Shown here: piece by piece, positions 1 through 41,923 of the stretch
Layout: every line of letters starts with the position of its first letter
How positions within the stretch are numbered: position 1 is the first letter of the stretch
IMG/VR virus record: IMGVR_UViG_3300043219_000202
Coordinates: 1-41,923 of that record
DNA from: a virus
Length of the DNA stretch: 41,923 nucleotides
Reading direction: 5' to 3' (one strand)
Position numbers and translations under genes: made by a program
The notes under the pieces: model-generated
Databases searched by the model: none
The model's input: the letters and a program-made list of their open reading frames with translations, nothing else
Told to the model about the DNA's origin: nothing

Positions 1-78
1 AGACATGGTACGAGTCATCTTCATGACGAGTGTCATCGACGGTACCACTATCTACATTACCAGTGATAACATTAAAGG
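1..78. repeat. Terminal direct repeat, left copy (circular overlap)
   Basis: These 78 bases are identical to 41846-41923. A coding frame passes through the join without a stop, so this looks like the overlap left when a circular assembly is linearised. A physical terminal repeat of the virion DNA is less likely, because the repeat lies inside an adhesin gene. Confidence 0.95.
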
Positions 79-2407
79 TGTCTGCTTCCCACCAGGGTGG
101 GTAGGTAGAAGTTGTAGTACTAGACGACGATGACGTTGAAGTGCTTGTTGAGGTGGACGTACTCGTTGAAGTTGATGTACTTGTTGATGTAGTTGTTGAT
201 GAGGTACTTGCAGTCGCAGTAGTCGATGTAGTGGAAGTACTGGTAGAAGTTGAAGTTGAGGTTGTAGTTGAGGTTGTAGTCGATGATGTAGTTGTGAAGC
301 CGGGGATGTCTACGAAAGACATACCCCGACATGGATGATCCAGATCTACACGTTCTACAACCGTACCGAGATTTTTATGGATCGACCTTAATTGATCGTC
401 TCCGGCTGCGTCTGAATAGGCTACATATATGAGGTTATTGGTGGAGTCGACGAAATCTGCCATCCAGGTAGGGCCGAAGTTCCCTGCTGCCAAGCCGGTA
501 GTTATTGTGGTCAGATTACTGCCATCTAAATCACACCTTTTCAGACTATATGAATCAGCTGTGTTAATGAAATAGACATGATCATTGACCAAGTCCAGAC
601 ATGGACCTGCGGCCACATTAGTAGTGCTAAAGATCCTTTCTTGACTAGAACCATTTACATTTGCTCTCCAAACACCCTTGTGAGTTGAGCCAGTGGTCGC
701 GGTAGTCCAATAAACCTTACCCCCACTTGCATCTATCACTATACCCCTAAAGGAGTAGCCTATACCAGGTTCATTCCAAAAAGAAGAGAGGGAGTCGCCA
801 TCGTAAGTGATTTTAACGATCTCTTCATTGAAGCTATCCCAATAATAGATAGTGCCCGAGAAATTGACTGCAAGACCTCCATGTTGGTTGCCAGTTACAA
901 TCTTAAGAGTACTAGCGGATGATCCATCGAGAAGCGATCTCTTTAAAAGATTCCCTTCGAACCAGAACATCCATCCATCACTATAGTCAACAGCTATGCC
1001 TCTTCGAGCATTAGACCCAGTAGGAGCTAAATCTTCTCGATGGGTAAGTCCGGGTGCTCTCCTACGTTGTACGTAATCTGCACCACCATGGATCGTAAGA
1101 AATAGATACCCAGAATCCACAGGAGGCTGTGTACTAGTTGTTGAAGTACTGGTAGATGTTGAAGTCGAGGTACTGGTGCTGGTTGACGAAGTTGTACTTG
1201 CCGTAGCGGTCGTAGAAGTGCTAGTCGAAGTGGAAGTTGAGGTACTTGTGGATGCCGTGGATGCCGTGGTAGATGTACTGGTAGATGTAGAGGTAGATGT
1301 AGAGGTAGTTTCTGTCGTGCTCGTAGTCGACGTTGTGGTTGTGGTTGTAATAACTGCCCATCCACTGAAGTCTACGAGACAGACCGCATGATTGACATCA
1401 AGGGCTATTCCGGTGCCGGACTTGAACGTAACATGCGTAGAATCTGTGATCTCACAGGTCCACTGATCAAAAGAGTCATCACGGTAGTCGTTATTCTCGT
1501 CCTGAGATGTACGATAACAGATAGTGTCTGCGGTGGAGATTGGACTAATGGTTGCAGCTATTGTATTATAGGGTGTGCCTGTACCATCACCCTGTACTTC
1601 TACGTGCTGGACGACTATGCCAGAGTCAGATGGGAAGCTTACCAACCACCATACAAAGTTGAAGTCTTCGGCGTTGGTTTCAGTACCCCTGTCAGAGGTA
1701 ATCTCTTCGGTACCGGTTAATCTATGTCTTGTACCTCGAGATCTGTCGTAATCGGACGTGAGGTCCTTTTCATGTTGAAAGTAGAACCAGGTTTCGGCGA
1801 GAACAACGGCATCCCCGGGATCGAATGTATCCGGAGTCGTCAAGTCTTGGTTAAGACTCTCCTCACCGGTCTGTACCGTAACACCTAGGCCAGCAGCCCA
1901 CTCAACTACCTCCCAACAGGTGCGGGTATTGTAGTTGCTATTACCACGCTCGAACTCAACCTCTGTATTAGAGTTGAATCTGGCTACCCAATAAGCAACC
2001 TTAAAATAAACCTCACCGATACCTTCATCCATACGAGCATTGACAAGGATATGGGAGCGAGACTGATCTATCTCAGAGATAGTCTCTTGGAAGACAGCAG
2101 TATCTAACTTGTCGGTTTGACCCCTCTGGACTGTAAATTCACCGTTTAAGGCTTCAACCACATACCATCTGACTGTAAGGATGGTAGCGCCAGCTAATGC
2201 GCGCTCAAATGTTATCTGTGTAGTGCTGGAGATGTAACCACAAGGATGGTTATAGGAGGCAGAACGAGGGTTTCCATCGTGCCTATGATCAAAGACTAAG
2301 AAGGCAGCAGCGGTAGAGCTTAGCTCTGTATCTAGAGTTGCAACCTTAGAGGTATCGCCTGACCCAAATACTACCTCACCAGTTTGTACTCGTATACGCT
2401 TAACCAT
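1..2407 (-). CDS. Giant modular adhesin / tail fibre, N-terminal 802 codons (continues at 41845 across the circular join)
   Basis: The ATG at 2407 follows an AAGGAG site eight bases upstream. The frame is open to base 1 and continues at 41845, giving a 1446-residue protein that ends at 39912. Residues 1-350 hold four related modules of about 90 residues, each with an (I/V)Q-x-G start, an FERG-like strand and a W-x-VVE-(F/W) end; the same modules occur in the neighbouring 674-residue protein. Residues 351-425 are a Ser/Thr tract. Residues 430-700 form a likely six-bladed YWTD/NHL-type beta-propeller: blades read like IYYWDSFNEEIVKITYDG and VYWTTAT...GVWRANVNG. A second Ser/Thr tract covers 704-765, and a beta-rich domain with WW and HEDDSYHVLDEVTG-like residues begins near 766. 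It lies downstream of the other tail fibre genes, so host recognition is a reasonable inference. The enzymatic role, if any, is unknown. Confidence 0.85.
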   Translation of the reverse strand, partial: MVKRIRVQTGEVVFGSGDTSKVATLDTELSSTAAAFLVFDHRHDGNPRSASYNHPCGYISSTTQITFERALAGATILTVRWYVVEALNGEFTVQRGQTDKLDTAVFQETISEIDQSRSHILVNARMDEGIGEVYFKVAYWVARFNSNTEVEFERGNSNYNTRTCWEVVEWAAGLGVTVQTGEESLNQDLTTPDTFDPGDAVVLAETWFYFQHEKDLTSDYDRSRGTRHRLTGTEEITSDRGTETNAEDFNFVWWLVSFPSDSGIVVQHVEVQGDGTGTPYNTIAATISPISTADTICYRTSQDENNDYRDDSFDQWTCEITDSTHVTFKSGTGIALDVNHAVCLVDFSGWAVITTTTTTSTTSTTETTSTSTSTSTSTSTTASTASTSTSTSTSTSTSTTATASTTSSTSTSTSTSTSTSTSTTSTQPPVDSGYLFLTIHGGADYVQRRRAPGLTHREDLAPTGSNARRGIAVDYSDGWMFWFEGNLLKRSLLDGSSASTLKIVTGNQHGGLAVNFSGTIYYWDSFNEEIVKITYDGDSLSSFWNEPGIGYSFRGIVIDASGGKVYWTTATTGSTHKGVWRANVNGSSQERIFSTTNVAAGPCLDLVNDHVYFINTADSYSLKRCDLDGSNLTTITTGLAAGNFGPTWMADFVDSTNNLIYVAYSDAAGDDQLRSIHKNLGTVVERVDLDHPCRGMSFVDIPGFTTTSSTTTSTTTSTSTSTSTSTTSTTATASTSSTTTSTSTSTSTSTSTSTSTSTSSSSSTTTSTYPPWWEADTFNVITGNVDSGTVDDTRHEDDSYHV
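109..297 (-). repeat. Ser/Thr-coding low-complexity tract (adhesin linker 2)
   Basis: Imprecise tandem repeats made almost only of Ser and Thr codons on the minus strand (on the plus strand, runs of gta-gat-gtt type). Linker between the first propeller and the central domain of the giant adhesin. Confidence 0.9.
1135..1350 (-). repeat. Ser/Thr-coding low-complexity tract (adhesin linker 1)
   Basis: Same kind of degenerate Ser/Thr codon repeat, with a few Ala, Glu and Val codons. It joins the four N-terminal modules to the first beta-propeller of the giant adhesin. Confidence 0.9.
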
Positions 2408-2457: not shown

Positions 2458-4482
2458 CTAGAAGTTAGGTACTATTGGTTTTACAGTGGGCGATGAAATC
2501 TCATTCCACCCGGCTTCTGGGCTCATGTCGGCCCAGTATGCACGTATCCACTGTTGAGCAACTTCAAACTCGAGGCGGAGCCATATGTATCCTACCCAGG
2601 TAGTGTTGAGACTATACCAGACTTCATCACTGGCGCCATACTTGTCACCAACTAGAAGTCTAATCTTCCAGGTATTATCAGAGTTGTGCCAGTAGAGTCT
2701 GACATCTGCATATGTATTACCATCCTCGTGTTCTACCTTAATGCCGTAGCTAGCATCTTGACCAACTGGTTTGGTGTAGTCCCTGATCAGAGTGTAGACA
2801 TCAAAGTAGCCATAAGCGTCTGGTTGCACCAGACACTTTTGTGATGACCCTGCTGGAGTGATGTGCATGAGCCCTAGTGCGTTCTCGTCTACTGTACCAC
2901 TACCTACTTCCGACCAGAAGGAGGCTACTGCCTGATCATCGAATTCATCGTAGAATAGAGACGTCTTAGTAACAGTAGTTGTAGTAGATGATGATGAACT
3001 TGTCGATGTAGAAGTTGAAGATGTCGAAGATGTAGATGAAGTTGTCGAAGATGTTGTTATAGATGTAGATGAAGTTGATGTACTTGTTGATGTAGAAGTG
3101 CTTGTACTTGTCGATGTACTTGTCGATGTACTTGTCGAGGTGCTACTACTTGTACTCACGGTCGTGCTAGTAGAAGAAGACGTTGAAGATGTAGAGGAAG
3201 TAGAAGTCGATGATGAACTTGTGCTTGTGCTGCTTGAGGTGGAGCTCGTAGAACTGCTCGTAGAGCTAGTAGAAGTAGATGTTGAAGTAGAAGAAGATGT
3301 AGAGGCAGTAGAAGATGAAGAGGTGCTGCTGCTTGTACTTGTGCTTGTGCTTGTGCTTGTGGAGGTAGATGTCGACGTCGTTGTTGTGGTGAAAGTATTG
3401 CTATTAAAGTCTACAATCGCTGCCCAGTAAATAGCGTCATCGGTTGAGAATGTTCCCCTCTCAATCTCTACATAGTCATCTCCAGTAGGAGAAGGGAACT
3501 TATAGCTGGCGTGAGAAGACTCATCATGGGGTGCTCCCGACTTATCTTCATTCGCATTGTATCCATCTACAAATGTGACATCCTCGTCATGGAGACTGAC
3601 GAGAGTCATGTCTGTGGGACCGTGTTGGGCTGTCTCTGATTTGGAACGATGCTCGACTGCAACTTCACTTGGAAATTCTATCACCCACCAACGAACGTAG
3701 GAGTCATAACTAGTCGAATCTTTTCTTGTAAAGCGAAGCTGCTGTGGTGAGTCCTGGAGTCGAGAACCTACAGTACATCCTCCCGCTGTCCCACTAGCAT
3801 GTCTGAAAGAAAAGTGGACCCAGGTTTGTGCATGGGTTACGGCAGAGATGGCCTGAGTCGCATAACCAGCCCCGGAGAGATCTCCAGTAAGGAACAGTTC
3901 ACCAGTCTGTATGGCGGAATCTAGATAGCCACTTGCAAATTCAATTACTTGATAGCGTGCTGCGGCTGTATCATCTGTATCAGTGTCACCACGTTCACAC
4001 TCAATCTGAGTGCTACTATTAAACTTAAATGTAAAGATACCGTGGTGAGAGTTAAGGACCCCAAAGGTTTCATCGCTCCTGCTGATACCACCACTACCGA
4101 CAATGAGTGCATTGTCTAAATCGACCTCATCGATAGTAGCAGTATTAGAGGTTTGAGAATCGGTAAGGGCTATCGCACCGTGTTGAACTGAAAACTTGGG
4201 TGGATGATTTACATTGGAATTGGCTTCAATTACCTGCCATTCTACTGTTACGCCAATATTAAAGCCGGCCCTTCCACGCTCAAACTTAACGGTGTCAACA
4301 TCTTTGATGTGACCCCATACTTGCTGTTCGTTCGTATCACCGCCAGGACCGAACCTAAAGGAAAAGAGGAGGAAGGCCTGATCTACAGACTGCAAAGTAC
4401 TCCCTATAGAGTCTTCGATAGACGTATCGTCGACACCGAAAGCTATTTCGCCGTGATGTACTTTGATGTATTGTTCGGCCAC
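2458..4482 (-). CDS. Modular tail fibre / adhesin with mucin-like Ser/Thr tract
   Basis: 674 residues from a GTG start; an AGGAG site lies nearby upstream. Residues 1-362 are four tandem modules of about 90 residues with recurring signatures: VxHGE or IQTGE at the start, VKFERG or IECERG in the middle, RYQVIEF or RWWVIEF at the end. They match those that open the giant adhesin next door, so the two genes are paralogous at their N-termini. Residues 363-504 are almost only Ser and Thr. Residues 505-674 form a globular domain (starts LFYDEFDD, contains YGIKVEHEDGN and RLEFEV) that resembles concanavalin-like lectin/glucanase folds, an inference from pattern only. It lies 11 bp after the T7-type fibre gene, so the tail fibres are probably built from several proteins. 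Likely role: host surface binding. Confidence 0.8.
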   Translation of the reverse strand: MAEQYIKVHHGEIAFGVDDTSIEDSIGSTLQSVDQAFLLFSFRFGPGGDTNEQQVWGHIKDVDTVKFERGRAGFNIGVTVEWQVIEANSNVNHPPKFSVQHGAIALTDSQTSNTATIDEVDLDNALIVGSGGISRSDETFGVLNSHHGIFTFKFNSSTQIECERGDTDTDDTAAARYQVIEFASGYLDSAIQTGELFLTGDLSGAGYATQAISAVTHAQTWVHFSFRHASGTAGGCTVGSRLQDSPQQLRFTRKDSTSYDSYVRWWVIEFPSEVAVEHRSKSETAQHGPTDMTLVSLHDEDVTFVDGYNANEDKSGAPHDESSHASYKFPSPTGDDYVEIERGTFSTDDAIYWAAIVDFNSNTFTTTTTSTSTSTSTSTSTSTSSSTSSSSTASTSSSTSTSTSTSSTSSSTSSTSSSTSTSSSSTSTSSTSSTSSSTSTTVSTSSSTSTSTSTSTSTSTSTSTSTSTSTSSTSITTSSTTSSTSSTSSTSTSTSSSSSTTTTVTKTSLFYDEFDDQAVASFWSEVGSGTVDENALGLMHITPAGSSQKCLVQPDAYGYFDVYTLIRDYTKPVGQDASYGIKVEHEDGNTYADVRLYWHNSDNTWKIRLLVGDKYGASDEVWYSLNTTWVGYIWLRLEFEVAQQWIRAYWADMSPEAGWNEISSPTVKPIVPNF
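2973..3396 (-). repeat. Longest Ser/Thr-coding tract (about 140 codons)
   Basis: Nearly pure Ser/Thr coding sequence within the 674-residue fibre protein, residues about 363-504. Alternating Thr-Ser pairs dominate. Such DNA is prone to slippage, so length variation between relatives is expected. Confidence 0.9.
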
Positions 4483-4493
4483 TTAGGACTCTC

Positions 4494-5714
4494 CTATTTG
4501 TGTTCTGCGTAGCCGTAGGTAGGATTGAGCATAACGACTGTTGCAGACTGAGCGATACCCATAGGCTGGATGACATTCCCTGTACCACTTGGAGCGGTCT
4601 CTGTTAGCTCTCCTACATCGGTAGATAGGTATAGAAGTGCGCCGACGGTCCAGGACCAACTGTCGTCTCGAGCAAATCCCCGTACAAGGAACTCACCGGA
4701 TGCGTCAGCCGCGATAGTTTCTATGGCCATGTATACACATGGCGCCTTTGTATCATCTGTAGCATCTGCTTTCCAGACCTTACCATCAGACTTCATGTAG
4801 CAGAACGAACCGAAGACTACATTCTCTCCTGCTTGGAGAGAGTCAGTCCTGAAGCCACTCACTGTATGATCTGAATCTGGTGTAGGATCGAGCAAGAAAC
4901 CTGCATCGTGCCATGCCTCTGCTTTAGTGGCGTGATGTAATGCACTGTACTCACCGGGATAGTTATCAACATCATCGTCTTCGGGATTGACTGCCCACTG
5001 ATGGGCTTGCTCAGCCGATGCTAGTGCTTCGGCCGCCGCATCTGATACAGCCTCTACGTCAATGACTAGTACCCACTTGACCGCGGCAAGGTCTGTAACC
5101 CACACACCTGAGGTGTGTACTATGGTAGCCCTATATATATTCTGAGTGTCGGCACCATTAACCCCGTCTATAACAATATCCCCGCCAGTGTACTGTGTAG
5201 CGGTGGTCCAGATATCTCTCCATGTACCAAATTCCTGTGCAAGCACAAGGTCACCGTCAGCATCAAAGCCAAAGAACTGGTTAGCTCTAGCAGCTGCACT
5301 GTAATCTAGCTCCACTCCACCTGAGTCTGTAACGGTCCTAGCCATCTTAAACGATCGATCCACTTCACTCTGTAACTGCTGTACCATTGTAGTCAGCCTA
5401 TCAAGTGCCCGCTCATGTGTCTCCGCGGGGAACTTCTCACCAGCTACATAGTCTACACCCTGAAGCTGAGGCACATTACGATAGATAATTACAGAAGCAC
5501 CATTGATGGGAATGAAACCAGCCTCAAAGATTACATTACCACCAGTAGGACTTCCCACGTTGGTAATAATATAGTGTGTAGTAATTGTCTGGAGTATACT
5601 GTCAACGTAGACTTCGAGGTCTCCCTCATTGAAGACGAGGAAGATATACTGAAAGGTATCATTTACACCGTTGGCAGTATAGCCGATACTATTAATTGTG
5701 CTTGCAATTGTCAT
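4494..5714 (-). CDS. Tail fibre protein with T7 gp17-like N-terminal domain
   Basis: 406 residues when started at the ATG at 5714, which shares one base with the upstream stop (TAATG) and has an AGGAGG site about ten bases upstream; an in-frame start ten codons earlier lacks this. The first 150 residues follow the T7 tail fibre N-terminal family: a beta-rich segment (DTFQYIFLVFNEGDLEVYVD), an FxxP region with NGASVIIYRNVPQLQGVDYVAGEKFPAETHERALDRLTTMVQQL, and a helical QSEVDRSFKMAR stretch. In T7 this part docks the fibre to the tail. The rest is a beta-rich shaft or tip (DADGDLVLAQEF, then ASGEFLVRGFARDDSW) with no recognisable enzyme. It probably anchors the fibre apparatus, to which the two larger downstream adhesins may attach. 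Confidence 0.85.
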   Translation of the reverse strand: MTIASTINSIGYTANGVNDTFQYIFLVFNEGDLEVYVDSILQTITTHYIITNVGSPTGGNVIFEAGFIPINGASVIIYRNVPQLQGVDYVAGEKFPAETHERALDRLTTMVQQLQSEVDRSFKMARTVTDSGGVELDYSAAARANQFFGFDADGDLVLAQEFGTWRDIWTTATQYTGGDIVIDGVNGADTQNIYRATIVHTSGVWVTDLAAVKWVLVIDVEAVSDAAAEALASAEQAHQWAVNPEDDDVDNYPGEYSALHHATKAEAWHDAGFLLDPTPDSDHTVSGFRTDSLQAGENVVFGSFCYMKSDGKVWKADATDDTKAPCVYMAIETIAADASGEFLVRGFARDDSWSWTVGALLYLSTDVGELTETAPSGTGNVIQPMGIAQSATVVMLNPTYGYAEHK

Positions 5715-5911
5715 TAGGAAGTGCCTCCTACAACTTTGGACCAAGGTGGTTTTGCAGTTGCACGCTCTGGATCAATCAGAAAGAACTCAAAGCCCCCACC
5801 ACAAGAGCATATTTCTACAGTGTACAGGTCGTCCTCATTGGGACCAGTGATCTCTCGAAGCTCATTACACAAACTGCAAGGAACTACGTGACCTAATAAA
5901 GAGGTTGCCAT
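5714..5911 (-). CDS. Small Cys-rich protein, probable zinc ribbon
   Basis: 65 residues, with a CSLC pair at positions 12-15 and CSCGGG near 35-40, which could hold one zinc. It sits between the large internal virion protein and the tail fibre and is translationally coupled to the fibre by a one-base TAATG overlap. I do not recognise a family. Synthesis together with the fibre suggests a virion or assembly role, but this is inference. Confidence 0.75.
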   Translation of the reverse strand: MATSLLGHVVPCSLCNELREITGPNEDDLYTVEICSCGGGFEFFLIDPERATAKPPWSKVVGGTS

Positions 5912-24032: not shown

Positions 24033-24275
24033 TTATGGTGGTGAAGTGGTTGTTGTTGACGTCGATGTACTGGTTGATGTACTTGTTGAGCTGGTTGTCG
24101 AAGATGTGGTGCTTATATAGCGGTTATCATGCCAATCACCCGCTGGAAGCGGCCATTCTCTAGAAGAGTCAGGCTCAGTCTTCGGTTCCAGGAAGTGAAC
24201 ACCTACCTCATTACCAGCTTCCAACTGCGTACTGTGTTCTGTATCAGCTCTTGGAGCCACATATGGATTAGCCAT
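24033..24275 (-). CDS. Small protein ending in a Ser/Thr tract
   Basis: 80 residues. The first 55 form a short soluble domain (VAPRADTEHSTQLEAGNEVGVHFLEPKTEPD, then EWPLPAGDWHDNRYI), and the rest is a Thr/Ser tract ending SPP. The tract has the same style as the linkers in the two adhesins. No family recognised. It may be a short attachable fibre or a protein modified in the same way as the adhesins. Confidence 0.7.
   Translation of the reverse strand: MANPYVAPRADTEHSTQLEAGNEVGVHFLEPKTEPDSSREWPLPAGDWHDNRYISTTSSTTSSTSTSTSTSTSTTTTSPP
24036..24112 (-). repeat. Ser/Thr-coding tract at a protein C-terminus
   Basis: Short copy of the same repeat type, here forming the last 25 or so residues of the 80-residue protein at 24033-24275. 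It lies far from the tail fibre genes. Confidence 0.85.
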
Positions 24276-30220: not shown

Positions 30221-30374
30221 GGTCTTTCCTCCTCGTTCGTTGTTGTGTGAGAAAACACTTAAAAGCTTACCTATTCAACCGTAATAGTAAAGGAAGAGCG
30301 ATAGAAAAACTACATATGATAAATTTGACATAAGCAAATAGTTTACCTGGACCCGTACATCTGAGGCTTTGGTT

Positions 30375-30791: not shown

Positions 30792-30798
30792 ACGTCAC

Positions 30799-31238: not shown

Positions 31239-31493
31239 CTATCCCTCTACTATGCTCTTTAGGTGGTATACATACCCTTCTCGGCTGGGTCCTGTGTATT
31301 CGAAGACTGCTGTCTTGATGGGTACTGGCTCTGCTTCTTCTTCTTCTGCTCTGTGCAGGAAACGTAAACAGGCTCCAACCATGGGTAGTTCTTCCATCAT
31401 AGCTAAGTGATAGAAGGGAGGAGGGGCGGAGAAGGTAGTGGCTATCCTTGTTATCTCGTACTGTCCTAAGCATAGCTTTATTGTTAGTGACAT
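31239..31493 (-). CDS. Hypothetical protein (84 residues)
   Basis: Start chosen at the ATG at 31493 because of an AAAGGAG site; it overlaps the end of the GT4 gene by ten bases. Sequence MSLTIKLCLGQYEITRIATTFSAPPPFYHLAMME, then an acidic Glu-rich centre. No family recognised. Last member of the glycan cluster operon by spacing. Confidence 0.55.
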   Translation of the reverse strand: MSLTIKLCLGQYEITRIATTFSAPPPFYHLAMMEELPMVGACLRFLHRAEEEEAEPVPIKTAVFEYTGPSREGYVYHLKSIVEG

Positions 31494-32575
31494 GATAAGT
31501 ACTCCTTTATAAGTTTCTCTCTGTCCTTTGGGTAAGTAAGAAGAGGTATTAGCCACGCGAAGTTCTGCACAGTCTCCTCTATACTGTTGTTTTTTGCAAC
31601 ACTTTCTGCAATGAGGTCTCTCGGCGTAGGTGTCTGTAGTAACTGATGAATTGCATCTGCTATGTCACTAGGGGTGTTGCTTTTTGCAACACTTCTTGTG
31701 TCTCTGACCCACTGTGGATATCTACCTCCACCATCAGAGATAGATAGAAGTGCTACACCACACGCCATGGACTCTAGTACACAGCGGTCATTGAGACCGC
31801 TTGCATGATGTGCGAATATACGGGACCTCTGGTAGATTTGTGCTAGCTTTGACCTGTCTACATAGCCTGGAAGAGCGACTTTCATTCCTTCTGCCTCTAT
31901 CATCTTGAACATTCTGTCCGTCTGAGTTGACCTACGGTAAGCCCCAGGTATGACACAGCATAGGTCTTTACCATACTTCTTCTTGTATTCCAGAACGGCG
32001 TCTACGGTCCTCCACTGTTGTTTAAGGTCGAATATCTTGGAAGCTCCTATACAGATGTCGTAAGATAACCGTGCGTCTTCTGAGGGTTTGAATACCTCGG
32101 TGTTGATCGGCTTGTTCCATGGAAGGTATAACTTTCCCCTCTTTGACATCAGCTTTCCCTCGTGTAGTATAATATCCCACTGTGGCCAGAATCCTCTCGG
32201 TGTGCCAGCACTGTAGTATATGTGCCAATAGTCTTTTAGATCGTTTAAAGGCTCTATCCACCACCTGTATCCTCCACGCCAATATAGTATATCATCAGGC
32301 CTCAGGAAGTCTTTAAGAATCGCCACAGAAGGCATAACCATGCACTTTAAGCGGCCTAGGTCTCTAAGACCGGCTCCTCTGGCCGACTCGATCACTACGA
32401 GGATCTCGTCTACAACACCACGCTCTAGGAGAGCCTCTAAAAGGAGTGGGTGACCGTCTGTAGCGAAGTCCACTGTGAGCCATGAGTTGACAGCTTCGTT
32501 CTGCAGCCACTTTGTGGCATCTGTCCCGGGCTTGGAGTTCAATGACTTGTGGATGTAGATCAGGCGTTTCCCCAT
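31484..32575 (-). CDS. Glycosyltransferase, GT4-like (GT-B)
   Basis: 363 residues. The C-terminal domain carries NDRCVLESMACGVALLSISDGG at 262-283, the typical E-x7-E nucleotide-sugar binding region of GT4-type enzymes, preceded by VALPGYVDRSKLAQIYQRSRIFAHHASG. The N-terminal part (IYIHKSLNSKPGTDATKWLQ) is divergent. It should transfer a sugar from a nucleotide donor, substrate unknown. Belongs to a run of glycosyltransferases, ten bases from the next one. Confidence 0.85.
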   Translation of the reverse strand: MGKRLIYIHKSLNSKPGTDATKWLQNEAVNSWLTVDFATDGHPLLLEALLERGVVDEILVVIESARGAGLRDLGRLKCMVMPSVAILKDFLRPDDILYWRGGYRWWIEPLNDLKDYWHIYYSAGTPRGFWPQWDIILHEGKLMSKRGKLYLPWNKPINTEVFKPSEDARLSYDICIGASKIFDLKQQWRTVDAVLEYKKKYGKDLCCVIPGAYRRSTQTDRMFKMIEAEGMKVALPGYVDRSKLAQIYQRSRIFAHHASGLNDRCVLESMACGVALLSISDGGGRYPQWVRDTRSVAKSNTPSDIADAIHQLLQTPTPRDLIAESVAKNNSIEETVQNFAWLIPLLTYPKDREKLIKEYLSCH

Positions 32576-32584
32576 GTTCTCCTC

Positions 32585-33559
32585 CTATGGCAGTCCACAA
32601 TAATACCCTATCAGTTCAGTAAGCTCTTGTATCCGTATCTTGTCAGTGTGACGTTCTTCTATTAGCTCTCTACCATTGCTAGCTACTCGCTCAAGGTCGT
32701 TTGGATTGTCAAGATACCACTTTACTTTGCCTTCCATTTCTACTATAGATTCGAAGGTCTCATAATTGTGACCCTCTACAAACCCTAACCATTCTTCACT
32801 ATCTGCTGGAGTTGTCATTAGTAGGCTGCCACAGGCTGCCACTTCAAAGAACCTTGGATTGACAAAGCAGTGATCTCCGTATTTGAGGATATTGGTGTTT
32901 AGGGAGATCTTCGATCTTGCCATTACATCTACATAATCGTGCACTGGTAATTGAGGACGGCGTTTCCCGTGTCCGCCAAAGGCGTATCCTTTAGGCATCT
33001 TAGCTACGGTATCGTGGAGGTCTTGCCTCATCGTATAGTAACGAGGGTCAGTACACATGCTACAGGAGATATCAATATCTCTTTTCTGACTAACGCTCTG
33101 GAAGATGTCCGTATTAATGGAAAAGGGTAATACTTCGATATTGGTATTGGGGTGCTGCTCTTCTAGTTCTTCTTTTTGGGAGTGGTTTGGTACCAGAACG
33201 AGATCTGGCTTATTTGCCTCGATGAATGGATCCTCGTCTCTGCCGATCCAGAGGATCCTTTTACCATCTTTATATATAGGGCAATAATCTGCTATGTAAT
33301 GTACTTTGGGAATCCCACAATTAGCCAGGCCCTGTACTGTGGCATTGTGTTTAGCAAGATATGTCAGTATGACATCTGGCTTGAAATCTAGGACATCTAT
33401 GATATCACTAATGTGATATATCTTCCTAGCTTGAAAGGAGCGAAAGTAGCCCGGGCCGTAGAAGCATACTTCGTGCTGTCTAGTAATCTCTTGCTTGAAG
33501 AACTCGTGCCTACGGTTGTGCTTCTTCCATTGGTTCCAGCTTAGGATTAGGATCTTCAT
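32585..33559 (-). CDS. Glycosyltransferase, CgeB/DUF3880-like
   Basis: 324 residues from the ATG at 33559; an in-frame GTG 23 codons earlier lies inside the frameshifted gene upstream and is less likely. The start MKILILSWNQWKKHNRRHEFF, the VILTYLAKHN and KVHYIADYCPIY parts, and RFFEVAACGSLLMTTPADSEEW at 236-257 match the glycosyltransferase family with a CgeB-like C-terminal domain. Donor and acceptor unknown. Part of the same cluster. Confidence 0.8.
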   Translation of the reverse strand: MKILILSWNQWKKHNRRHEFFKQEITRQHEVCFYGPGYFRSFQARKIYHISDIIDVLDFKPDVILTYLAKHNATVQGLANCGIPKVHYIADYCPIYKDGKRILWIGRDEDPFIEANKPDLVLVPNHSQKEELEEQHPNTNIEVLPFSINTDIFQSVSQKRDIDISCSMCTDPRYYTMRQDLHDTVAKMPKGYAFGGHGKRRPQLPVHDYVDVMARSKISLNTNILKYGDHCFVNPRFFEVAACGSLLMTTPADSEEWLGFVEGHNYETFESIVEMEGKVKWYLDNPNDLERVASNGRELIEERHTDKIRIQELTELIGYYCGLP

Positions 33560-33709
33560 GATTTGGGAAAGTCTCCCATAGAGGGCACTATAACGAGGTG
33601 AGGGGCTATCTGACGTCTTAGGTCGCACATGAGGTCTAGAACGTCCTGACGGGCCTGTATGAGCCTCCTATGGGGTAAATCGTACGAGGAGTAGCATACG
33701 TTTCTTCAT
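33556..33709 (-). pseudogene. Small 50-residue gene interrupted by a +1 frame change
   Basis: ATG at 33709 shares one base with the upstream stop (TAATG). The frame then reads MKKRMLLLVRFTP and stops at 33668. The +1 frame continues at once and runs HRRLIQARQDVLDLMCDLRRQ through to PSMGDFPKS, ending in a TGA that overlaps the next gene's ATG (ATGA). The whole stretch is 154 bases, i.e. 51 codons plus one base. The slip lies in ACC-CCA-TAG, with an AGGAGG just after it. It may be a programmed +1 shift, a natural frameshift mutation, or a one-base assembly error in a four-C run. Confidence 0.65.
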
Positions 33710-33975
33710 TAGTTGTTATCTTCTGTTGGAAATGGTTCATCTAATCGGGGCCGGAGTGCCTCCAGATACATCACGAGTGTGTTGTATATTCTGCTGGAGA
33801 CCTCACAGATGGATACTATGATAAGTAGATCGTCATAGTCTATTTCACAGAGAATCGTATTGAGCTGGTGTGTATTTGCTCTTTGTAGCCAGTTGAGTCG
33901 CTTCTCCGCAAGATCAAAGTAACGATCTACCTCCGGTACCTGCCTCTTTGGTTTATTCTTAAGCCATTTAAACAT
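33709..33975 (-). CDS. Hypothetical helical protein (88 residues)
   Basis: Basic start (MFKWLKNKPKRQVPEVDRYFDLAEKRLNWLQ), then helical and acidic. No transmembrane part. Translationally coupled by TAATG to the 50-residue gene. No family. Confidence 0.65.
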   Translation of the reverse strand: MFKWLKNKPKRQVPEVDRYFDLAEKRLNWLQRANTHQLNTILCEIDYDDLLIIVSICEVSSRIYNTLVMYLEALRPRLDEPFPTEDNN

Positions 33976-34009
33976 CTTGTCCTCCTTCTACTTGCACTTT
34001 ATGAAGTCC

Positions 34010-34405
34010 TTATTTATCTGCTCCATCCTCTTGTCCATATTCTCTTGCCGTTTTGTCCCAGTATTCCTTACGAGCCTCGTCGCTTCTCCAGCGTCTGGTG
34101 AGTCTTCTCCAACCAAACCATACTGGGAACGTGATCACAGCTACGGCTACATATTCCCACCAGGGGCCTTCGAAGAACATTCCTGTCTTAAAGTACTCTA
34201 CTGCTATACCTACACAAGACAGAAAGAAGGTAGCTATGAGGGTCCTGAGTTCCCATATCTCAAATCGTGTCCTGGGAGGTTCATTGGCATATACTTCGTC
34301 ATAGCGTTGGTTCCATTCACGATCAAACCAAGCTTCCCATTCACTGAACTGTTTCACTCGATCGCCTAAAGTGTAGTATAGTCCGTTTGGATACCAAATT
34401 CTCAT
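34010..34405 (-). CDS. Membrane protein with two hydrophobic segments
   Basis: 131 residues. A soluble N-terminal part (GDRVKQFSEWEAWFDREWNQRYDEVYANEPPRTRFEIWE) is followed by two segments: LIATFFLSCVGIAVEYF and WEYVAVAVITFPVWFGWRRL, then a basic/acidic tail. Function unknown; in a phage, superinfection exclusion or lysis-related roles are possible guesses only. Confidence 0.65.
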   Translation of the reverse strand: MRIWYPNGLYYTLGDRVKQFSEWEAWFDREWNQRYDEVYANEPPRTRFEIWELRTLIATFFLSCVGIAVEYFKTGMFFEGPWWEYVAVAVITFPVWFGWRRLTRRWRSDEARKEYWDKTAREYGQEDGADK

Positions 34406-34417
34406 GTTATTCTCCTT

Positions 34418-34618
34418 CTATAGGAATAAAAACCGTATACTTACATAGAACAAAAAGCCGACTACACCGAGCATTACTCCAATGGCAAATACATGTCCAA
34501 GTACTGTGAGTGCCTTCTGGAAGTGAACATGGGACTGTGACGCATTATATCGTGTCCCGAAAAAGTTCTGGTAGACCGCAACGGGCTCTGTAAAGTAGGT
34601 CTTAACTCTCTTGAACAT
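34418..34618 (-). CDS. Small single-pass membrane protein (66 residues)
   Basis: Start at the ATG at 34618 with an AAGGAGG site that lies over the previous gene's end; the longer frame upstream is not used. C-terminal segment ALTVLGHVFAIGVMLGVVGFLFYVSIRFLFL is strongly hydrophobic. The basic N-terminus (MFKRVKTYFTEPVAVYQNFFG) would stay in the cytoplasm. No family. Confidence 0.7.
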   Translation of the reverse strand: MFKRVKTYFTEPVAVYQNFFGTRYNASQSHVHFQKALTVLGHVFAIGVMLGVVGFLFYVSIRFLFL

Positions 34619-34619
34619 C

Positions 34620-34865
34620 TTATCCTCCTTCGGGGTTAATATTCCCCAACATCTTCTGGTTGTGAATATCGACGACGCCTTCAATAACCTTATGGGCAAG
34701 AAGGTGCTGGAGATCATCTGTACCAATCCCACCACGCATAATGAATACCTCTGCAATCTCTGGTTCTATTTTGCCTTCCTCTTGGGCGGTCATAAGGACT
34801 CTGTACATTTTGTATGGTGCATCATCCTCCTGCATTGGAGTTACTGCTATGCTTGTGATCTTCAT
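34620..34865 (-). CDS. Hypothetical protein (81 residues)
   Basis: MKITSIAVTPMQEDDAPYKMYRVLMTAQEEGKIEPEIAEVFIMRGGIGTDDLQHLLAHKVIEGVVDIHN: mixed alpha/beta. Its end contains the ribosome site for the next gene, so the two are coupled. No family. Confidence 0.65.
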   Translation of the reverse strand: MKITSIAVTPMQEDDAPYKMYRVLMTAQEEGKIEPEIAEVFIMRGGIGTDDLQHLLAHKVIEGVVDIHNQKMLGNINPEGG

Positions 34866-34877
34866 CTTATTCCCCTC

Positions 34878-35162
34878 CTAAATAGACATCAATGTAGCAC
34901 AGGCCGGACAATATCTGTCATATTTTGTACCTTCGTCTGGATCGCCGTGAGAGTAAAAGTCATTGAGATCAATTAGGTCTTGCTCCCAAACTGTATGACA
35001 ACACTTCTTCCAGTGCTTCGCCTTCAGATGATCGTTGACCGTGTCTTTGACAATCTCCACGGCAGCAAAGGCAATTTCTTCACCATGCTTCTCGAAGAAA
35101 TCACCAAACTGAAGATCGCTAAGGCCATCTTCTAAATACGCTAACAGTTTGTTGATATCCAT
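34878..35162 (-). CDS. Hypothetical Cys-containing protein (94 residues)
   Basis: Helical start (DINKLLAYLEDGLSDLQFGDFFEKHGEEIAFAAVEIVKD), then CCHTVWE and YCPACATL near the end, which may bind zinc. No family recognised. Confidence 0.65.
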   Translation of the reverse strand: MDINKLLAYLEDGLSDLQFGDFFEKHGEEIAFAAVEIVKDTVNDHLKAKHWKKCCHTVWEQDLIDLNDFYSHGDPDEGTKYDRYCPACATLMSI

Positions 35163-35163
35163 G

Positions 35164-35364
35164 TTATTCTCCTTCTTTCGGAGTTACTACATCCTTTAAA
35201 GTGACGTGAGGTACGTCGTGCTCCATACCGTACACAACTGCTAGAGCCATCTGTTGTACTGGGTTCTGGTCGGGCATGAAGTGGCCTGTCATCCCTTCGA
35301 TTGACATCCAGTACTTGATATCTTTGAGCTTCTGTTCTGACATCTGTAGTATGACGATAGGCAT
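35164..35364 (-). CDS. Hypothetical small protein (66 residues)
   Basis: MPIVILQMSEQKLKDIKYWMSIEGMTGHFMPDQNPVQQMALAVVYGMEHDVPHVTLKDVVTPKEGE; one base from the next gene. No family. Coupled spacing supports it as real. Confidence 0.6.
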   Translation of the reverse strand: MPIVILQMSEQKLKDIKYWMSIEGMTGHFMPDQNPVQQMALAVVYGMEHDVPHVTLKDVVTPKEGE

Positions 35365-35367
35365 AGT

Positions 35368-35994
35368 TTAGGTTGACCTCTGGAAGATGACCATATTGTT
35401 ACCAAGCATTCTTAAGTTTCCCGCGCGGTGATCCCATCCACCCTTATCTATATAGGGTCTGCCGGCGAGCTCTCTAAAGAGCTCTTCGTCACCTGTATGT
35501 CTAAAGCCTGCGGCTTTGAAGTGGGAGAGCCACCAAGGAAGTTCCCGTACTGTGCAGTGATATCTGCCCGCTAAGGTGCAGATACTCATAGCTAGGACTC
35601 CATCATCCTCTACAAACTTGGCTAGGTTCTGTATAAATGGGACCACATATTCACGTTCGATGTGCTCTGCCACTTCCCAACAGGTGATAAGGTCATACTT
35701 CTGCGGGACATTAACTGGTAGGTTGATTGGAAAGCGGAGATCGGCTATGATCATTCTTTCCCTTGGAATAACTATCTTAGAGAGACACTCCTTGCTACCC
35801 TCTAATGCGTAGGCATCTACTCCACGTTTTAACCATGCCGCGGTAAAGTCGCCTATTCCTGCTCCTACGTCGAGGGTGTGTTGGGGTGTGCCGTACATGA
35901 CATCGAGATGTTTGGTCATCTCTCGACTGCGACCCCTGAGCCACTCCCTTCCTGTGAAGAACTTGGTATTGTACACTTTCTTTAGGTCTAGCAC
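35368..35994 (-). CDS. SAM-dependent class I methyltransferase
   Basis: 208 residues from the GTG at 35994, which has an AGGGG site just after the previous stop; the ATG seven codons earlier overlaps that gene and lacks a site. Motif I is LDVGAGIGDF (41-50), motif II ALEGS (63-67), motif IV YDLITCWEVAEHI (100-112). Resembles Methyltransf_11/23-type enzymes, often acting on sugars or small molecules. It follows a GT2 gene and may methylate a sugar made by the cluster; acceptor unknown. Confidence 0.85.
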   Translation of the reverse strand: MLDLKKVYNTKFFTGREWLRGRSREMTKHLDVMYGTPQHTLDVGAGIGDFTAAWLKRGVDAYALEGSKECLSKIVIPRERMIIADLRFPINLPVNVPQKYDLITCWEVAEHIEREYVVPFIQNLAKFVEDDGVLAMSICTLAGRYHCTVRELPWWLSHFKAAGFRHTGDEELFRELAGRPYIDKGGWDHRAGNLRMLGNNMVIFQRST

Positions 35995-36004
35995 TGTGTT
36001 TCCC

Positions 36005-36952
36005 CTATTTAACATCTATTTGAATGTACTCTGGCATTTCGCGTCGCACCTTCTCCATCCACGTTTCCGGAGTATATAGCCTCTGACTCTCAATATGCTC
36101 TTTCTGCTCGGAGCACTTGACCATGATGTCTTCTTTCATCTCATTAAGAATTTCAAACTTATCGCCCTTGGTTTTTATCTTCCACTTGATAAAGCGATCT
36201 ACCCACTCTACTCCGCCCCAATGGTATGCTGCTATGATGTGGTTGCGCTGGAAATTATCATAGTTCCAGCCATACCCGCGCTTATAGGCATAGTGGTGTA
36301 TAGGGTTGAAGGGCCAAATGTTGATATCTCTACCTATCATGGCCATAGTGAAATTTAACCAATTCTCGCCTCCACCATAGATACCTAATTCTGCTGGCCA
36401 CATACCTAACTCATCCACCAGGATCTCTTTAGAGATCATCATGCCACACGTACTCATACAGGGCACCTTGTGGATCTTCTTATACTCAGTCATCCTGCGG
36501 AAGGAGTAGAGCATTAGACCATCAGGCTTGTTATACGTGTGCTGGTAAACAAGTTCTCTACCCGGGACGTCTAGCAGGTACCTTATCGGCATGTGGAGCG
36601 AGCCATTGAGTGTCGTGTACTTGGTCTTATAGTCCTTGAACATATTGACCAGAGCATTAGGCTCAACGATACAATGGGCGTCCATAAAGAATAGGGTATC
36701 AGCCTTCGCATTCTCTATGCCAACATTCTTAGCACCCCAATGACCTTCATGGTCATCGTGGTGAAAGACCCTCAGACGATGTCTTGCCTTTCCATCTAGC
36801 CAGTGCTTCTCCACCGTGCTCATGTTGTCAATAAGGAGTACTTCATAATCTAATGGAGTACACTCCAGAGTAGTGATCACATTCTGAATAGTGAAAGCCA
36901 CTTGAGGAAACTCGTTTCGAGATGGAATTATAATACTCAGTGCTTTACCCAT
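36005..36952 (-). CDS. Glycosyltransferase, family 2 (GT-A)
   Basis: 315 residues. LSIIIPSRNEFPQVAFTIQNV is the GT2 start; EVLLIDNMS, AKNVGIENAKADTLFFMDAHC (DAH at 91-93 in the DxD position), GIYGGGENWLN (GGGEN at 193-197) and HHY at 219-221 complete the fold, with the GGEN loop like that of polypeptide GalNAc-transferases and related enzymes. This likeness is notable because the phage has Ser/Thr tracts. Shares one base with the GT4 gene (TAATG). Confidence 0.9.
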   Translation of the reverse strand: MGKALSIIIPSRNEFPQVAFTIQNVITTLECTPLDYEVLLIDNMSTVEKHWLDGKARHRLRVFHHDDHEGHWGAKNVGIENAKADTLFFMDAHCIVEPNALVNMFKDYKTKYTTLNGSLHMPIRYLLDVPGRELVYQHTYNKPDGLMLYSFRRMTEYKKIHKVPCMSTCGMMISKEILVDELGMWPAELGIYGGGENWLNFTMAMIGRDINIWPFNPIHHYAYKRGYGWNYDNFQRNHIIAAYHWGGVEWVDRFIKWKIKTKGDKFEILNEMKEDIMVKCSEQKEHIESQRLYTPETWMEKVRREMPEYIQIDVK

Positions 36953-38232
36953 TACTCTTCCTCCAAGAGACTGAGCATGGCAGGTTCTAGTTGCGTCCGC
37001 CAGATGTAATCAAGGTTGTAATGCTTTCTGTAGTATGTCTTAGCTCTGACACCGATGTCTTGATCCATCTTGTGCGAGATGACCTTTGCAACTTCAGTGA
37101 AGTGCTCCTTCTCGTCATCACAGTTCCAGTCTACGGTATTAGAGGCCAATGGCCAGAAGAGGCCGATATTCCCACTAATCTCACGCATCATGTCAACATT
37201 ACCGTTTAACACCACCAAACAGCCTCCCATAAGGGATGCCTCAGGCAAAATCAAACCGAAGGACTCATGGTTAGTTGCGAACATGAAAAGATTACCTAGC
37301 TGCATCAGTTGGGCAACCATCTTCTCGGGTATACCTACCTCATACTCTGGAGGCTCAAAGCGACTAGTGAAGATGAAGTCCACGTCAGGCGTAAGCCCAA
37401 GCTTCTGTCCTAGCTCTAGGAGTTTCTCCACTGTCTTCCTGTGTCTGGGATCGTTGCACCACTGATTACAGATCACGAGCCTTACACTCTTACGCAGGAC
37501 ATTCTTAAGGCTAGCAAATACCCTCATTACGTAGCGAATACCCTTAGCTTCGATACGATCTATGGAGCAGGGGTATATCTGGATTACGTCTGCTTCCATC
37601 AGCCGATACTTATCTATAAATCTGTTAGTGACGTTGTCAAACTGTGCGAACTCTCGGATGTCCTTTACGTGGTGGATGCTCACGACTTGCTCGTGCCATC
37701 CCCTGAACTGCTCTGCCACTTTGAGAGAGTCTGTTCTGTTGGGAAATACCACACGGTGAGCTGGCCCATAGCGATTTATGTCCCAGATGCCGCACATACC
37801 TGTCGGCACGCTGTGAACCCAATGGAGCCATTTCACGGCAGGACGTTGCTTAGAGATTTCTTGTATAGCGAGACCGTATGGGGTGTGGGACTGAAGAAAG
37901 ATCAGGTCGTGGGTGAGGATGATATCGATCTCATACTCGTCGATGAAGTTCTTGATACTCTCGACGGTCTTGTCCTTGAGCTCGACATGCTTTTCGGAGA
38001 GGTTAAAGTCAGTGTACTGCTTGTCTAGGTGTCCTTGTGGGCAAATCTTGTGGAGAGTTGCCTCTCTGTAGTGGACGTCATCCTTCTCTGGATAGCCCGT
38101 ACAGACGATAAGATGCGGCTTGTGGCCGCCTCTGTGTAGCATACGTACCTGGCTACGGACGACATTGACTAGGCTGTAACCAGGCTGAAAGAACGTAAAA
38201 CTAGTGAATACTGCAACATTCGCTTTGCTCAT
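36952..38232 (-). CDS. Glycosyltransferase, GT4 family (GT-B)
   Basis: 426 residues. NHESFGLILPEASLMGG at 321-337 is the typical GT4 E-x7-E donor region, with LGNLFMFAT before it; ILTHDLIFLQSHTP and LHWVHSVP occur in the N-terminal domain; LVICNQWCNDPRHRKTVEKLLELGQKLGL is the linker region. First gene of the glycan cluster; a variant of the leader motif (38275-38286) lies 43 bases upstream. Acceptor unknown. Confidence 0.9.
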   Translation of the reverse strand: MSKANVAVFTSFTFFQPGYSLVNVVRSQVRMLHRGGHKPHLIVCTGYPEKDDVHYREATLHKICPQGHLDKQYTDFNLSEKHVELKDKTVESIKNFIDEYEIDIILTHDLIFLQSHTPYGLAIQEISKQRPAVKWLHWVHSVPTGMCGIWDINRYGPAHRVVFPNRTDSLKVAEQFRGWHEQVVSIHHVKDIREFAQFDNVTNRFIDKYRLMEADVIQIYPCSIDRIEAKGIRYVMRVFASLKNVLRKSVRLVICNQWCNDPRHRKTVEKLLELGQKLGLTPDVDFIFTSRFEPPEYEVGIPEKMVAQLMQLGNLFMFATNHESFGLILPEASLMGGCLVVLNGNVDMMREISGNIGLFWPLASNTVDWNCDDEKEHFTEVAKVISHKMDQDIGVRAKTYYRKHYNLDYIWRTQLEPAMLSLLEEE

Positions 38233-38318: not shown

Positions 38319-38756
38319 TCATGCTGCTATCCTAATGTAGAATTCAGGTTCGTAGTCTAGCTTGGTGTGTTTCCTTCGATTCTCTGTCTTAGTAAGGATC
38401 TGAAGATTATCCGGATGATGGAGACCACCCTTACCGAGAGGAACAATATGATCTACTTCAAAACTAGGGCCTAGCTCGTGTGCAAAACTGTAGACCCTCA
38501 GCATCTGCTCTTTTTCCGCATTGGAAAGATCTGGTGACTGGTTGCGCTTGCGAGCATCCATGCGGGCCCTGTGGGCTCTTGCTTTTTCTGGATTCTTTCT
38601 TTGCCAGTCTCTATTCCAGGCAGCTTTCTTCCCAGGGTTCCTCTCGTGAAAGCGGCGAGACCATTCGGCAAACTTGTGAGGATTAGCTTTACGGTATTTC
38701 TCTTTGGAAGCCTTCCGCCTTTCTAATCGAGTACGATCATCCAGTTTGACCTTCAT
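38319..38756 (-). CDS. HNH endonuclease
   Basis: 145 residues starting at the ATG at 38756, which has a GGAGGG site; a TTG four codons earlier is not needed. The N-terminal half is Lys/Arg-rich helical (RRKASKEKYRKANPHKFAEWSRRFHERNPGKKAAWNRDWQRKNPEKARAHRARM), the C-terminal part has VDHIVPLGKGGLHHPDNLQILTKTENRRKH, the HNH signature. Third HNH gene of the genome, alone at the head of the early block. Confidence 0.9.
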   Translation of the reverse strand: MKVKLDDRTRLERRKASKEKYRKANPHKFAEWSRRFHERNPGKKAAWNRDWQRKNPEKARAHRARMDARKRNQSPDLSNAEKEQMLRVYSFAHELGPSFEVDHIVPLGKGGLHHPDNLQILTKTENRRKHTKLDYEPEFYIRIAA

Positions 38757-38773
38757 TTGTCCCTCCAAGATTA

Positions 38774-39911: not shown

Positions 39912-41923
39912 CTAATCGTTAATCTCATAAAACCTCTTAACAGTGAGGAGTGTAGTCCCGGCCATAACTGAATATTCATTTCTCTTGTAGACTCCGTAGA
40001 TCTTAGCGATCTGGCCTGGACCAGGATAAGTTGTTGTTGTAGTTGAAGAAGAACTGGTAGAAGTCGAGGTTGAACTACTGCTCGTGGTGCTCGTAGGCGG
40101 ATAGACGTTATGATTACGGAAGTAATCAAACTGTGCATCCGCTCCACCTGCTTCAGATGTCTCTGCACATAGCCCAAGCTGCCGCCATGAGTAGTTAGGC
40201 ACAGGTATCGTGGTTGTTGTTGTGGATGAAGAAGAACTCGTGCTACTACTCGTAGAGACCGTAGATGAGGTAGTGCTACTGCTTGAGGAAGTACTGCTAG
40301 TGCTCGAAGTTGAAGAGGTTGAGCTACTAGTTGAGGCCGTGGTACTCGTTGAACTTGTTGAACTTGTTGTAGAACTTGTCGACGTCGTTGTAGATGAAGT
40401 AGTGAAGTCACTGGTACTATAGAGATCTATACCCTTGTGAGCCGTAAGGGTATTGTCACTCCACACCAGAGACTGGTTTACACCAGACTTGTGGACCCTG
40501 TAGATAGTCCTCCGATCTGGAGAAGAGTTGTAAGACCCGAAGTAAATAAAGTTGTCTACCGGGTCTGTCCTTACTGCTATCTCTGAGATAATGAGATTGG
40601 GTGTGCTCAGAGTGGTGATAAGCTGATCGTCACTGCCGTCTAGATCTACACGACGCAGGGTATGGGCGGAAGAATGGATGTAGTAGATATGACCATTCGG
40701 GAGGTCATAGCCTACTACCGTGTTGGTGGAAGCAACAAGCTGCTCTAGGTTGGAGCCGTCATTGTCAGCCCGATAGATACCTGCACCGGATGGACCAGTA
40801 GCACAGAAGAAGTAAACCTTGCCACTATATCCCCTTAGATGACGGGCATGATCTATACCGTCGTCTCCCAGTGAGAGGATGGCGGTCTCAGAGCCACCGT
40901 CGTAGTCTGATCTATTAAGGACATCATTGGTAAGGTCATACCAGAACAGATATAGAGCTGCTTCATCGAGACCAATAGAGATGACATTTTCAGTGTTAAT
41001 TGTGATGTTAAAGTTACCGTCTCTATCACACCTGCGTATACCGTTAGCAAGATAGAAGATCCAACCCTGGGTGTAGTCTACCGTAAGATCTCCACCAAAT
41101 GTACCTGTATCTGCAATGATAGTGGTCTCATTGTCAGCATCCGGGAGATCTCTCCTCTTGATCCAACTGGTAAAACCAATACCTGACCCGTCTCTAGCTG
41201 TGTAGTACAAGTAGCCATGATCAAATGGAGGTGCTGTGGTTGAAGTGCTAGTCGACGTCGATGATGTAGTCGAGGCCGTCGAACTCGTAGTGCTGGTAGA
41301 CGAACTCGTAGATGCAGTCGTAGAGGTAGTCGTAGACGTCGAGCTAGTACTGCTTGTAGTCGAGGTCGAAGAAGAAGTCGTAGTCGAAGTGCTAGTGGTC
41401 GACGTAGATGAACTCGTAGACGCAGTCGTAGAGGTCGAAGTGGAAGTCGAGGTAGACGTCGATGTACTGGTTGAAGTCGTAGAAGATGTTGTGACACCCT
41501 GATCATCTAGCCATAGGTGATCTATGGCAAAGACATGATTCTGATTACCAGCAGACTCATGGACGAACCGGACCCAAAGCTCATCTCCACCACTGACGTA
41601 ATCACCTACCGTGAAGGCCCAGCTATGATCTTCGTCTTCTCCACCCGTATCAGGAATATCATCCTCTGAAGTAAAATGTACCCAGGCTAAAGTATCGAAG
41701 TTCCATAGGCATACCCTGATAGTGTGAGTCGGACTACCATCATAGAAACCATGGAATCTAAGGACTAATACATCTTCAGGGGCCGAGGGGACATTAGCAA
41801 ACTTGTACTCATATTCGAAGCCCGGAGTGCCAGTGACTTCATCTAAGACATGGTACGAGTCATCTTCATGACGAGTGTCATCGACGGTACCACTATCTAC
41901 ATTACCAGTGATAACATTAAAGG
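39912..41923 (-). CDS. Giant modular adhesin / tail fibre, C-terminal part (start of the gene is at 2407)
   Basis: This is the same gene as 1-2407, read on from 41845; bases 41846-41923 duplicate 1-78. In full-protein numbering, residues 766-921 are a beta-sandwich-like domain, possibly jelly-roll. Residues 921-1007 are a Ser/Thr tract. Residues 1008-1285 are a second YWTD-like propeller, with blades such as GWIFYLANGIRRCDRDG and HIYYIHSSAHTLRRVDLDG. Residues 1285-1346 are another Ser/Thr tract, then comes a short segment with a third short Ser/Thr run and a small C-terminal domain ending KRFYEIND. The stop is TAA at 39912. The gene lies between the tail fibre genes and the holin-like gene, which fits a tail adhesin. 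I infer a long, flexible, multi-domain fibre. The fold assignments rest on motif reading only. Confidence 0.85.
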   Translation of the reverse strand, partial: FNVITGNVDSGTVDDTRHEDDSYHVLDEVTGTPGFEYEYKFANVPSAPEDVLVLRFHGFYDGSPTHTIRVCLWNFDTLAWVHFTSEDDIPDTGGEDEDHSWAFTVGDYVSGGDELWVRFVHESAGNQNHVFAIDHLWLDDQGVTTSSTTSTSTSTSTSTSTSTSTTASTSSSTSTTSTSTTTSSSTSTTSSTSSTSTTTSTTASTSSSTSTTSSTASTTSSTSTSTSTTAPPFDHGYLYYTARDGSGIGFTSWIKRRDLPDADNETTIIADTGTFGGDLTVDYTQGWIFYLANGIRRCDRDGNFNITINTENVISIGLDEAALYLFWYDLTNDVLNRSDYDGGSETAILSLGDDGIDHARHLRGYSGKVYFFCATGPSGAGIYRADNDGSNLEQLVASTNTVVGYDLPNGHIYYIHSSAHTLRRVDLDGSDDQLITTLSTPNLIISEIAVRTDPVDNFIYFGSYNSSPDRRTIYRVHKSGVNQSLVWSDNTLTAHKGIDLYSTSDFTTSSTTTSTSSTTSSTSSTSTTASTSSSTSSTSSTSSTSSSSSTTSSTVSTSSSTSSSSSTTTTTIPVPNYSWRQLGLCAETSEAGGADAQFDYFRNHNVYPPTSTTSSSSTSTSTSSSSTTTTTYPGPGQIAKIYGVYKRNEYSVMAGTTLLTVKRFYEIND
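40022..40088 (-). repeat. Ser/Thr-coding tract (adhesin linker 5)
   Basis: Short Ser/Thr run just before the small C-terminal domain of the giant adhesin. Confidence 0.8.
40215..40404 (-). repeat. Ser/Thr-coding tract (adhesin linker 4)
   Basis: Ser/Thr codon repeat following the second beta-propeller of the giant adhesin. Confidence 0.9.
41231..41490 (-). repeat. Ser/Thr-coding tract (adhesin linker 3)
   Basis: Long Ser/Thr codon repeat (about 87 codons) between the central beta-rich domain and the second propeller of the giant adhesin. Confidence 0.9.
41846..41923. repeat. Terminal direct repeat, right copy (circular overlap)
   Basis: Exact copy of bases 1-78. Removing one copy gives a 41,845 bp circle. 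The frame of the adhesin gene that starts at 2407 continues in register into the frame ending at 39912. Confidence 0.95.

Follow-up and report, generated by a model that had tools for sequence, protein, structure and literature searches.

The window analysed here is a stretch of 41,923 nucleotides of viral DNA, and an exact 78-bp repeat common to both of its ends indicates a complete circular genome of 41,845 bp, which belongs to a podovirus-like, uncultured bacterial virus. Almost all genes are placed on the minus strand, including those of a T7-type virion module composed of portal, tubular tail proteins, internal virion proteins and a tail fibre (4494..5744, minus strand; phrog_1640, 6e-29). 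We found on this strand a run of enzymes encoding a GT4-type glycosyltransferase, GT4a (31484..32575; PF00534, E 7e-10), a CgeB-like glycosyltransferase that is an optional member (32585..33628; PF13524, E 6.5e-20), a SAM-dependent methyltransferase (35368..36015; PF13489, E 7.6e-9), a GT2 enzyme of 315 aa (36005..36952; PF00535, E 1.7e-16), and a second GT4-type enzyme of 426 aa, GT4b (36952..38232; PF00534, E 3e-5, under the Pfam cut-off). An earlier note on this DNA had described four glycosyltransferases and one methyltransferase on a single strand, and all five open reading frames (ORFs) were recovered on the minus strand; small ORFs without known function interrupt the run at 33709-35364.

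The same note had pointed to three proteins with Ser/Thr tracts in this phage, and all three were found. Directly after the tail fibre gene lies the gene for a candidate substrate of 674 aa (2458..4482, minus strand), in which globular parts flank a single tract of some 156 residues, among them 141 Ser/Thr. The second protein is an adhesin of 1446 aa that runs across the circular join, with its first part at 1..2407 (minus strand, ATG at 2407) and its second part at 39912..41923 (minus strand, stop codon 39912-39914), the last 78 bases of which repeat window positions 1-78. It had been described as a split giant adhesin with five tracts; the five tract segments are present, but the protein is not split, being encoded by a single intact ORF through the contig join. 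The protein also contains a propeller-like DUF5050 domain. The third, also a candidate substrate, measures 80 aa and ends in a Ser/Thr tail (24033..24275, minus strand). Within the tracts, the six Ser codons and the four Thr codons all occur in mixture, which shows that the tracts are maintained as protein sequence and do not stem from DNA microsatellites.

A loop in GT2 had been taken as a hint at polypeptide GalNAc-transferases (GalNAc-Ts); the motif YGGGEN is indeed present, and the hint was backed by both sequence and structure. The best PDB sequence matches of GT2 were polypeptide GalNAc-Ts (E 2.5e-6), and these were again the best matches of a profile built from 21 GT2 homologues (E 3.5e-8). 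With the AlphaFold model, which is of high confidence (pLDDT 88.7), the best 50 Foldseek matches were all GalNAc-T chains. The 29 best structural matches in VIA-align were likewise all GalNAc-Ts (Z 24.1-27.5, rmsd about 3), covering 276-290 of the 315 residues, with the next family following at Z 19.7, a gap of more than 4 Z units; matches in BFVD were weaker than those to GalNAc-Ts. Residues D91, H93 and H220 align with the metal ligands of GalNAc-T2, its Asp-x-His motif and distal His. The motif reads D91-A-H93 in GT2, and E196 is positioned within the GGEN-type loop. D91, H93, E196 and H220 are invariant in all members that cover these positions (28-29 homologues), as are R225 and Y227 in the members covering them, and the invariance of all six residues extends to six divergent members found via tracts alone. 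No C-terminal ricin-type lectin domain is present, the 315 aa stopping where the catalytic domain ends, and no membrane anchor was found (top Kyte-Doolittle 19-residue mean, 1.05); hence, we call the enzyme GalNAc-T-like and do not file it as a member of GT27. A specific family name was sought in Pfam and NCBIfam, which gave generic GT2 only and no named equivalog above cut-off. A GalNAc-T-type fold alone fixes neither donor nor acceptor; GT2 is a soluble GalNAc-T-like catalytic domain and is likely to serve as the initiator.

The earlier assignment of the ORF at 36952 as GT4-like was confirmed: its Pfam match is below cut-off, yet the predicted model has a clear GT-B/GT4-type fold, and its nearest structures include MshA and BshA. 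PHROGs gave no match for the GT4 enzymes, INPHARED gave none for GT2 or GT4b of the window, and a PDB sequence search of GT4b, GT4a and the CgeB-like enzyme was uninformative.

Around GT2 homologues on viral contigs, GT4b was encoded in 19-20 of 21 loci, GT4a in 16 and the methyltransferase also in 16, with the CgeB-like gene in a minority of cassettes. The common order, on one strand, is tract gene, GT4b, GT4a, methyltransferase, GT2. A further glycosyltransferase-like protein, judged by sequence and lacking a Pfam match, occurs in 19/24 such loci, and other recurrent cassette genes encode a second methyltransferase (PF13578), a hexapeptide acyltransferase (PF00132) and an NDP-sugar epimerase (PF01370). 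The tract ORF ends at most 10 bp from GT4b in several relatives (L006/L454, L476 and G035/L515). The C-terminal domain of the window's tail fibre is common to proteins that adjoin tracts and cassettes in relatives L005-L007. The gene set also occurs on two genome contigs that have Deltaproteobacteria and Desulfobacteraceae in their titles; they may be phage contigs that were binned with their hosts, and L252 encodes tail proteins homologous to those of L005-L007. At 55%, the closest GT4b is encoded on a contig that was considered as a close relative and set aside, since it comes from an otherwise unrelated phage and its cassette reaches the contig end. A distant GT2 homologue (23%) is encoded between the terminase and portal genes of the cultured Tunturiibacter phage Tunturi_4; since tracts and GT4b are both absent there, it was left out of the system.

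If the enzymes act on the tracts, the two should be gained and lost together, a check that had been proposed beforehand and that was positive from three entry points: GT2, the tract and GT4b. Starting from GT2, tracts were found in 17 of 22 records and in 14 of the 15 records of at least 40 kb, always mainly on the strand of GT2. A tract-first sample, blind to the enzymes, was drawn by two DNA pattern scans with one rarer pattern added, and long-tract records were defined as those of at least 20 kb with at least 80 Ser/Thr within the tracts of one ORF (n = 21). The GT2 family was present in 13 of these 21 (nine strong matches, four weak or partial) and in none of 63 pattern-matching records without in-frame tracts (Fisher 3e-10; p-values are guides only, because the samples share a few records and relatedness is uncorrected). 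All six of the long-tract GT2 records examined at full length also had GT4b. A dose effect was observed, with GT2 in 8/9 records having at least 130 tract Ser/Thr per ORF and in 1/19 having fewer than 60. Starting from GT4b, a tract was encoded on the same strand in 46 of 80 loci and on the opposite strand in 3, and GT2 was found in 50 of the 80. Control scans with unrelated phage GT2 families gave no comparison, each matching only its own source record.

Eight of the 21 long-tract records are without this GT2 family, and another GT2 is present in four of the eight, vs 3/34 controls. Many relatives that keep the tracts and lack every glycosyltransferase would have spoken against the reading of the earlier note; only 4/21 long-tract records were without both PF00535 and PF13692, and these are 21-44 kb in length and possibly incomplete. 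One record of 94.9 kb (G119) has GT2 and GT4b with no tract, which counts against glycosylation of tracts. This record, and the Tunturi_4 homologue without tracts or GT4b, would fit the alternative that virion proteins are glycosylated elsewhere, the tracts being flexible linkers that are merely common in the same environmental phages. The dose effect of tract length, the strand bias of 46 to 3 at GT4b loci and the tract ORFs adjoining GT4b at several loci argue against this alternative, as do the terminase relatives of this phage: no tracts were found around 80 such loci, and no GT2 in the 24 records of at least 30 kb. A single terminase relative (G080) had appeared as a tract carrier through six loose pattern matches, which a stricter scan did not confirm. 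On balance, glycosylation away from the tracts seems unlikely.

Where tract proteins of relatives have a domain that can be recognised, they belong to the virion. Tracts are borne by tail proteins in L005 and L297, by a tail assembly protein in L285 and by a tail-tip protein in L021, and the major head protein of G120 (L283) ends in a C-terminal Ser/Thr tail. The earlier note had proposed that the enzymes decorate tail adhesins; the virion as target is supported by the genetic linkage and by the tracts on virion proteins, but restriction to adhesins is not, given the head protein.

A second alternative is that the enzymes alter glycans on the host surface (O-antigen, capsule), perhaps as a block to superinfection, like GtrA/GtrB/Gtr clusters. 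GtrB-type enzymes are membrane-bound, with C-terminal membrane helices, whereas no membrane segment was found in any of the five enzymes here. GT2 shares a glycosyltransferase family 2 domain with the GtrB-type enzymes of O-antigen conversion and has weak GtrB-like matches in PHROGs (4e-5), and such roles are held by many phage glycosyltransferases (PMC12619734). Unlike the GtrB type, however, GT2 is soluble and nearest in fold to a peptide-acting family, no flippase-like gene or GtrA/Gtr partner was recognised among the ORFs scanned, and the cassette is linked to Ser/Thr tracts; modification of host glycans therefore appears quite improbable. Addition of sugars to modified bases of phage DNA, for which DNA-hypermodifying phage glycosyltransferases offer a precedent (Pyle et al. 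2024, as cited in PMC12619734), is very improbable, since GT2 has the fold of a protein-acting GalNAc-T, the tract linkage would be left unexplained and, in agreement with what had been noted before, no base-hydroxylating or hydroxymethylating gene was recognised among the ORFs scanned in this complete 41.8-kb genome.

Taken together, these data make it quite probable that the run is a phage-encoded O-glycosylation cassette for the phage's own virion proteins, with the mucin-like Ser/Thr tracts as substrates, and the earlier reading of the run as glycosylation of the phage's own virion is well supported. GT2 would initiate on tract Ser/Thr in the host cytoplasm, before or during assembly, by metal-dependent transfer of GalNAc or a different HexNAc from a UDP donor. 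GT4b, the most constant partner of GT2, would then likely extend the chain, assisted by GT4a and the CgeB-like enzyme in cassettes that have them, and the methyltransferase likely caps or decorates the glycan. In this phage, the tracts, once densely glycosylated, would provide the tail adhesins of the virion with mucin-like linkers or C-terminal tails that are stiff and resist proteases; in some relatives, tracts on tail-tip or major head proteins may play the same role. What the phage gains is a matter of conjecture, and by analogy with mucins and mycobacteriophages, stiffness, shielding from proteases or antibody-like molecules, or altered binding may be considered.

Dozens of otherwise different phages have, as this one does, genes that probably sugar-coat the long Ser/Thr stretches in proteins of their own tail and shell. 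More tentatively, and with somewhat less than even confidence, we suggest that widespread uncultured phages have truly mucin-type virions, on which a viral enzyme belonging to the polypeptide GalNAc-transferase lineage would start dense O-HexNAc on tail and capsid tracts, with a mobile, swappable kit for extension and methylation. If so, mucin-type O-glycosylation would reach beyond eukaryotes. If the main reading is right, virion glycosylation would be a common, horizontally shared phage strategy, and there would be an explanation for the giant Ser/Thr-tract proteins that are so puzzling in environmental phages. A compact, soluble GalNAc-T-like enzyme, expected to express in bacteria, would also become available.

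In the systems that glycosylate serine-rich repeat adhesins, the first enzyme is the GT4-type GtfA/GtfB pair, which works with accessory secretion. Unlike those systems, the phage cassettes would start with a viral GT-A, GalNAc-T-like enzyme and have no export. The structural matches listed for GT4b include no GtfA/GtfB structure, although GT4b may still be related to them. Both kinds of system include extension and acetylation enzymes, and, as is proposed for the phages, the Gram-positive adhesins are O-glycosylated in their Ser/Thr-rich regions by dedicated cytoplasmic enzymes (PMC6973325, PMC7948813). Compared with eukaryotic GalNAc-transferases (GT27), GT2 has a near-full-length catalytic fold, the DxH motif and distal His, a GGEN-like loop and Ser/Thr-rich acceptors in common; unlike them, the phage enzyme is viral, is without lectin domain or membrane anchor, and shows 15-21% identity in structural alignments.

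To our knowledge, virion glycosylation has so far been described in few phages, chiefly actinobacterial. According to Freeman et al. 2023 (doi 10.1016/j.chom.2023.05.028), as cited in later papers, mycobacteriophages (Che8 and others) encode glycosyltransferases that O-glycosylate their own capsid and tail proteins at the C-termini, with glycans reported on the C-termini of capsid and tail tube proteins. Similarly, some relatives examined here have C-terminal Ser/Thr tails on tail and major head proteins. Unlike in mycobacteriophages, up to five conserved genes including a methyltransferase are shared here by unrelated uncultured phages, and the accessible parts of the mycobacteriophage accounts do not mention long mucin-like tracts or a GalNAc-T-like initiator. 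The literature searched, the coverage of which is incomplete, yielded no account of a polypeptide GalNAc-transferase in a phage or of this cassette. The phage-encoded glycosyltransferases studied here show genetic linkage to virion proteins that offer plausible acceptor sites. By this genetic evidence the cassette belongs among the phage virion glycosylation systems, and it probably works like mucin-type O-glycosylation. Virion O-glycosylation itself is known from mycobacteriophages; the GalNAc-T-like initiator, the long tracts and the shared cassette look new.

Cassette genes seem to be mobile between phages, since a homologue of GT4b, the GT-B/GT4-type glycosyltransferase of the cassette, was found with 54-55% identity to that of the window in record G176 (29510-30826; loci L524-L525), a phage that is otherwise unrelated to that of the window despite sharing this gene. 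The neighbour of the G176 homologue looks like a baseplate J gene. The cassette is also present in record G120, a phage whose major head protein (L283:16288-17658, minus strand; phrog_29, 6.8e-50) carries a C-terminal Ser/Thr tail of approximately 30 residues.

In the window itself, three HNH endonuclease ORFs were located on the minus strand (18392-18874, 29615-30220, and 38319-38768), one of which sits between scaffold and portal-side genes and another immediately precedes the cassette. The ORF at 11651-12316 (minus strand) combines an internal-virion-protein-like N-terminus (phrog_418) with a Peptidase_S74 chaperone domain of the kind commonly seen in tail fibres. In the complete 41.8-kb genome (window 1-41923), none of the ORFs scanned could be identified as a DNA polymerase, RNA polymerase, primase, or helicase, and numerous small ORFs of unknown function occupy 25-31 kb. 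A Sigma-70 region 4-like protein (29107-29652, minus strand; PF08281, 5.5e-11) is possibly a phage sigma factor.

Both GT2, the proposed initiator, and GT4b were found in the 94.9-kb record G119 (L291-L295), in which no Ser/Thr tract was present. Neither tracts nor GT4b were found in the cultured Tunturiibacter phage Tunturi_4 (PP885687.1), where a distant GT2 homologue (L430:1567-2565) lies between the terminase and portal genes.
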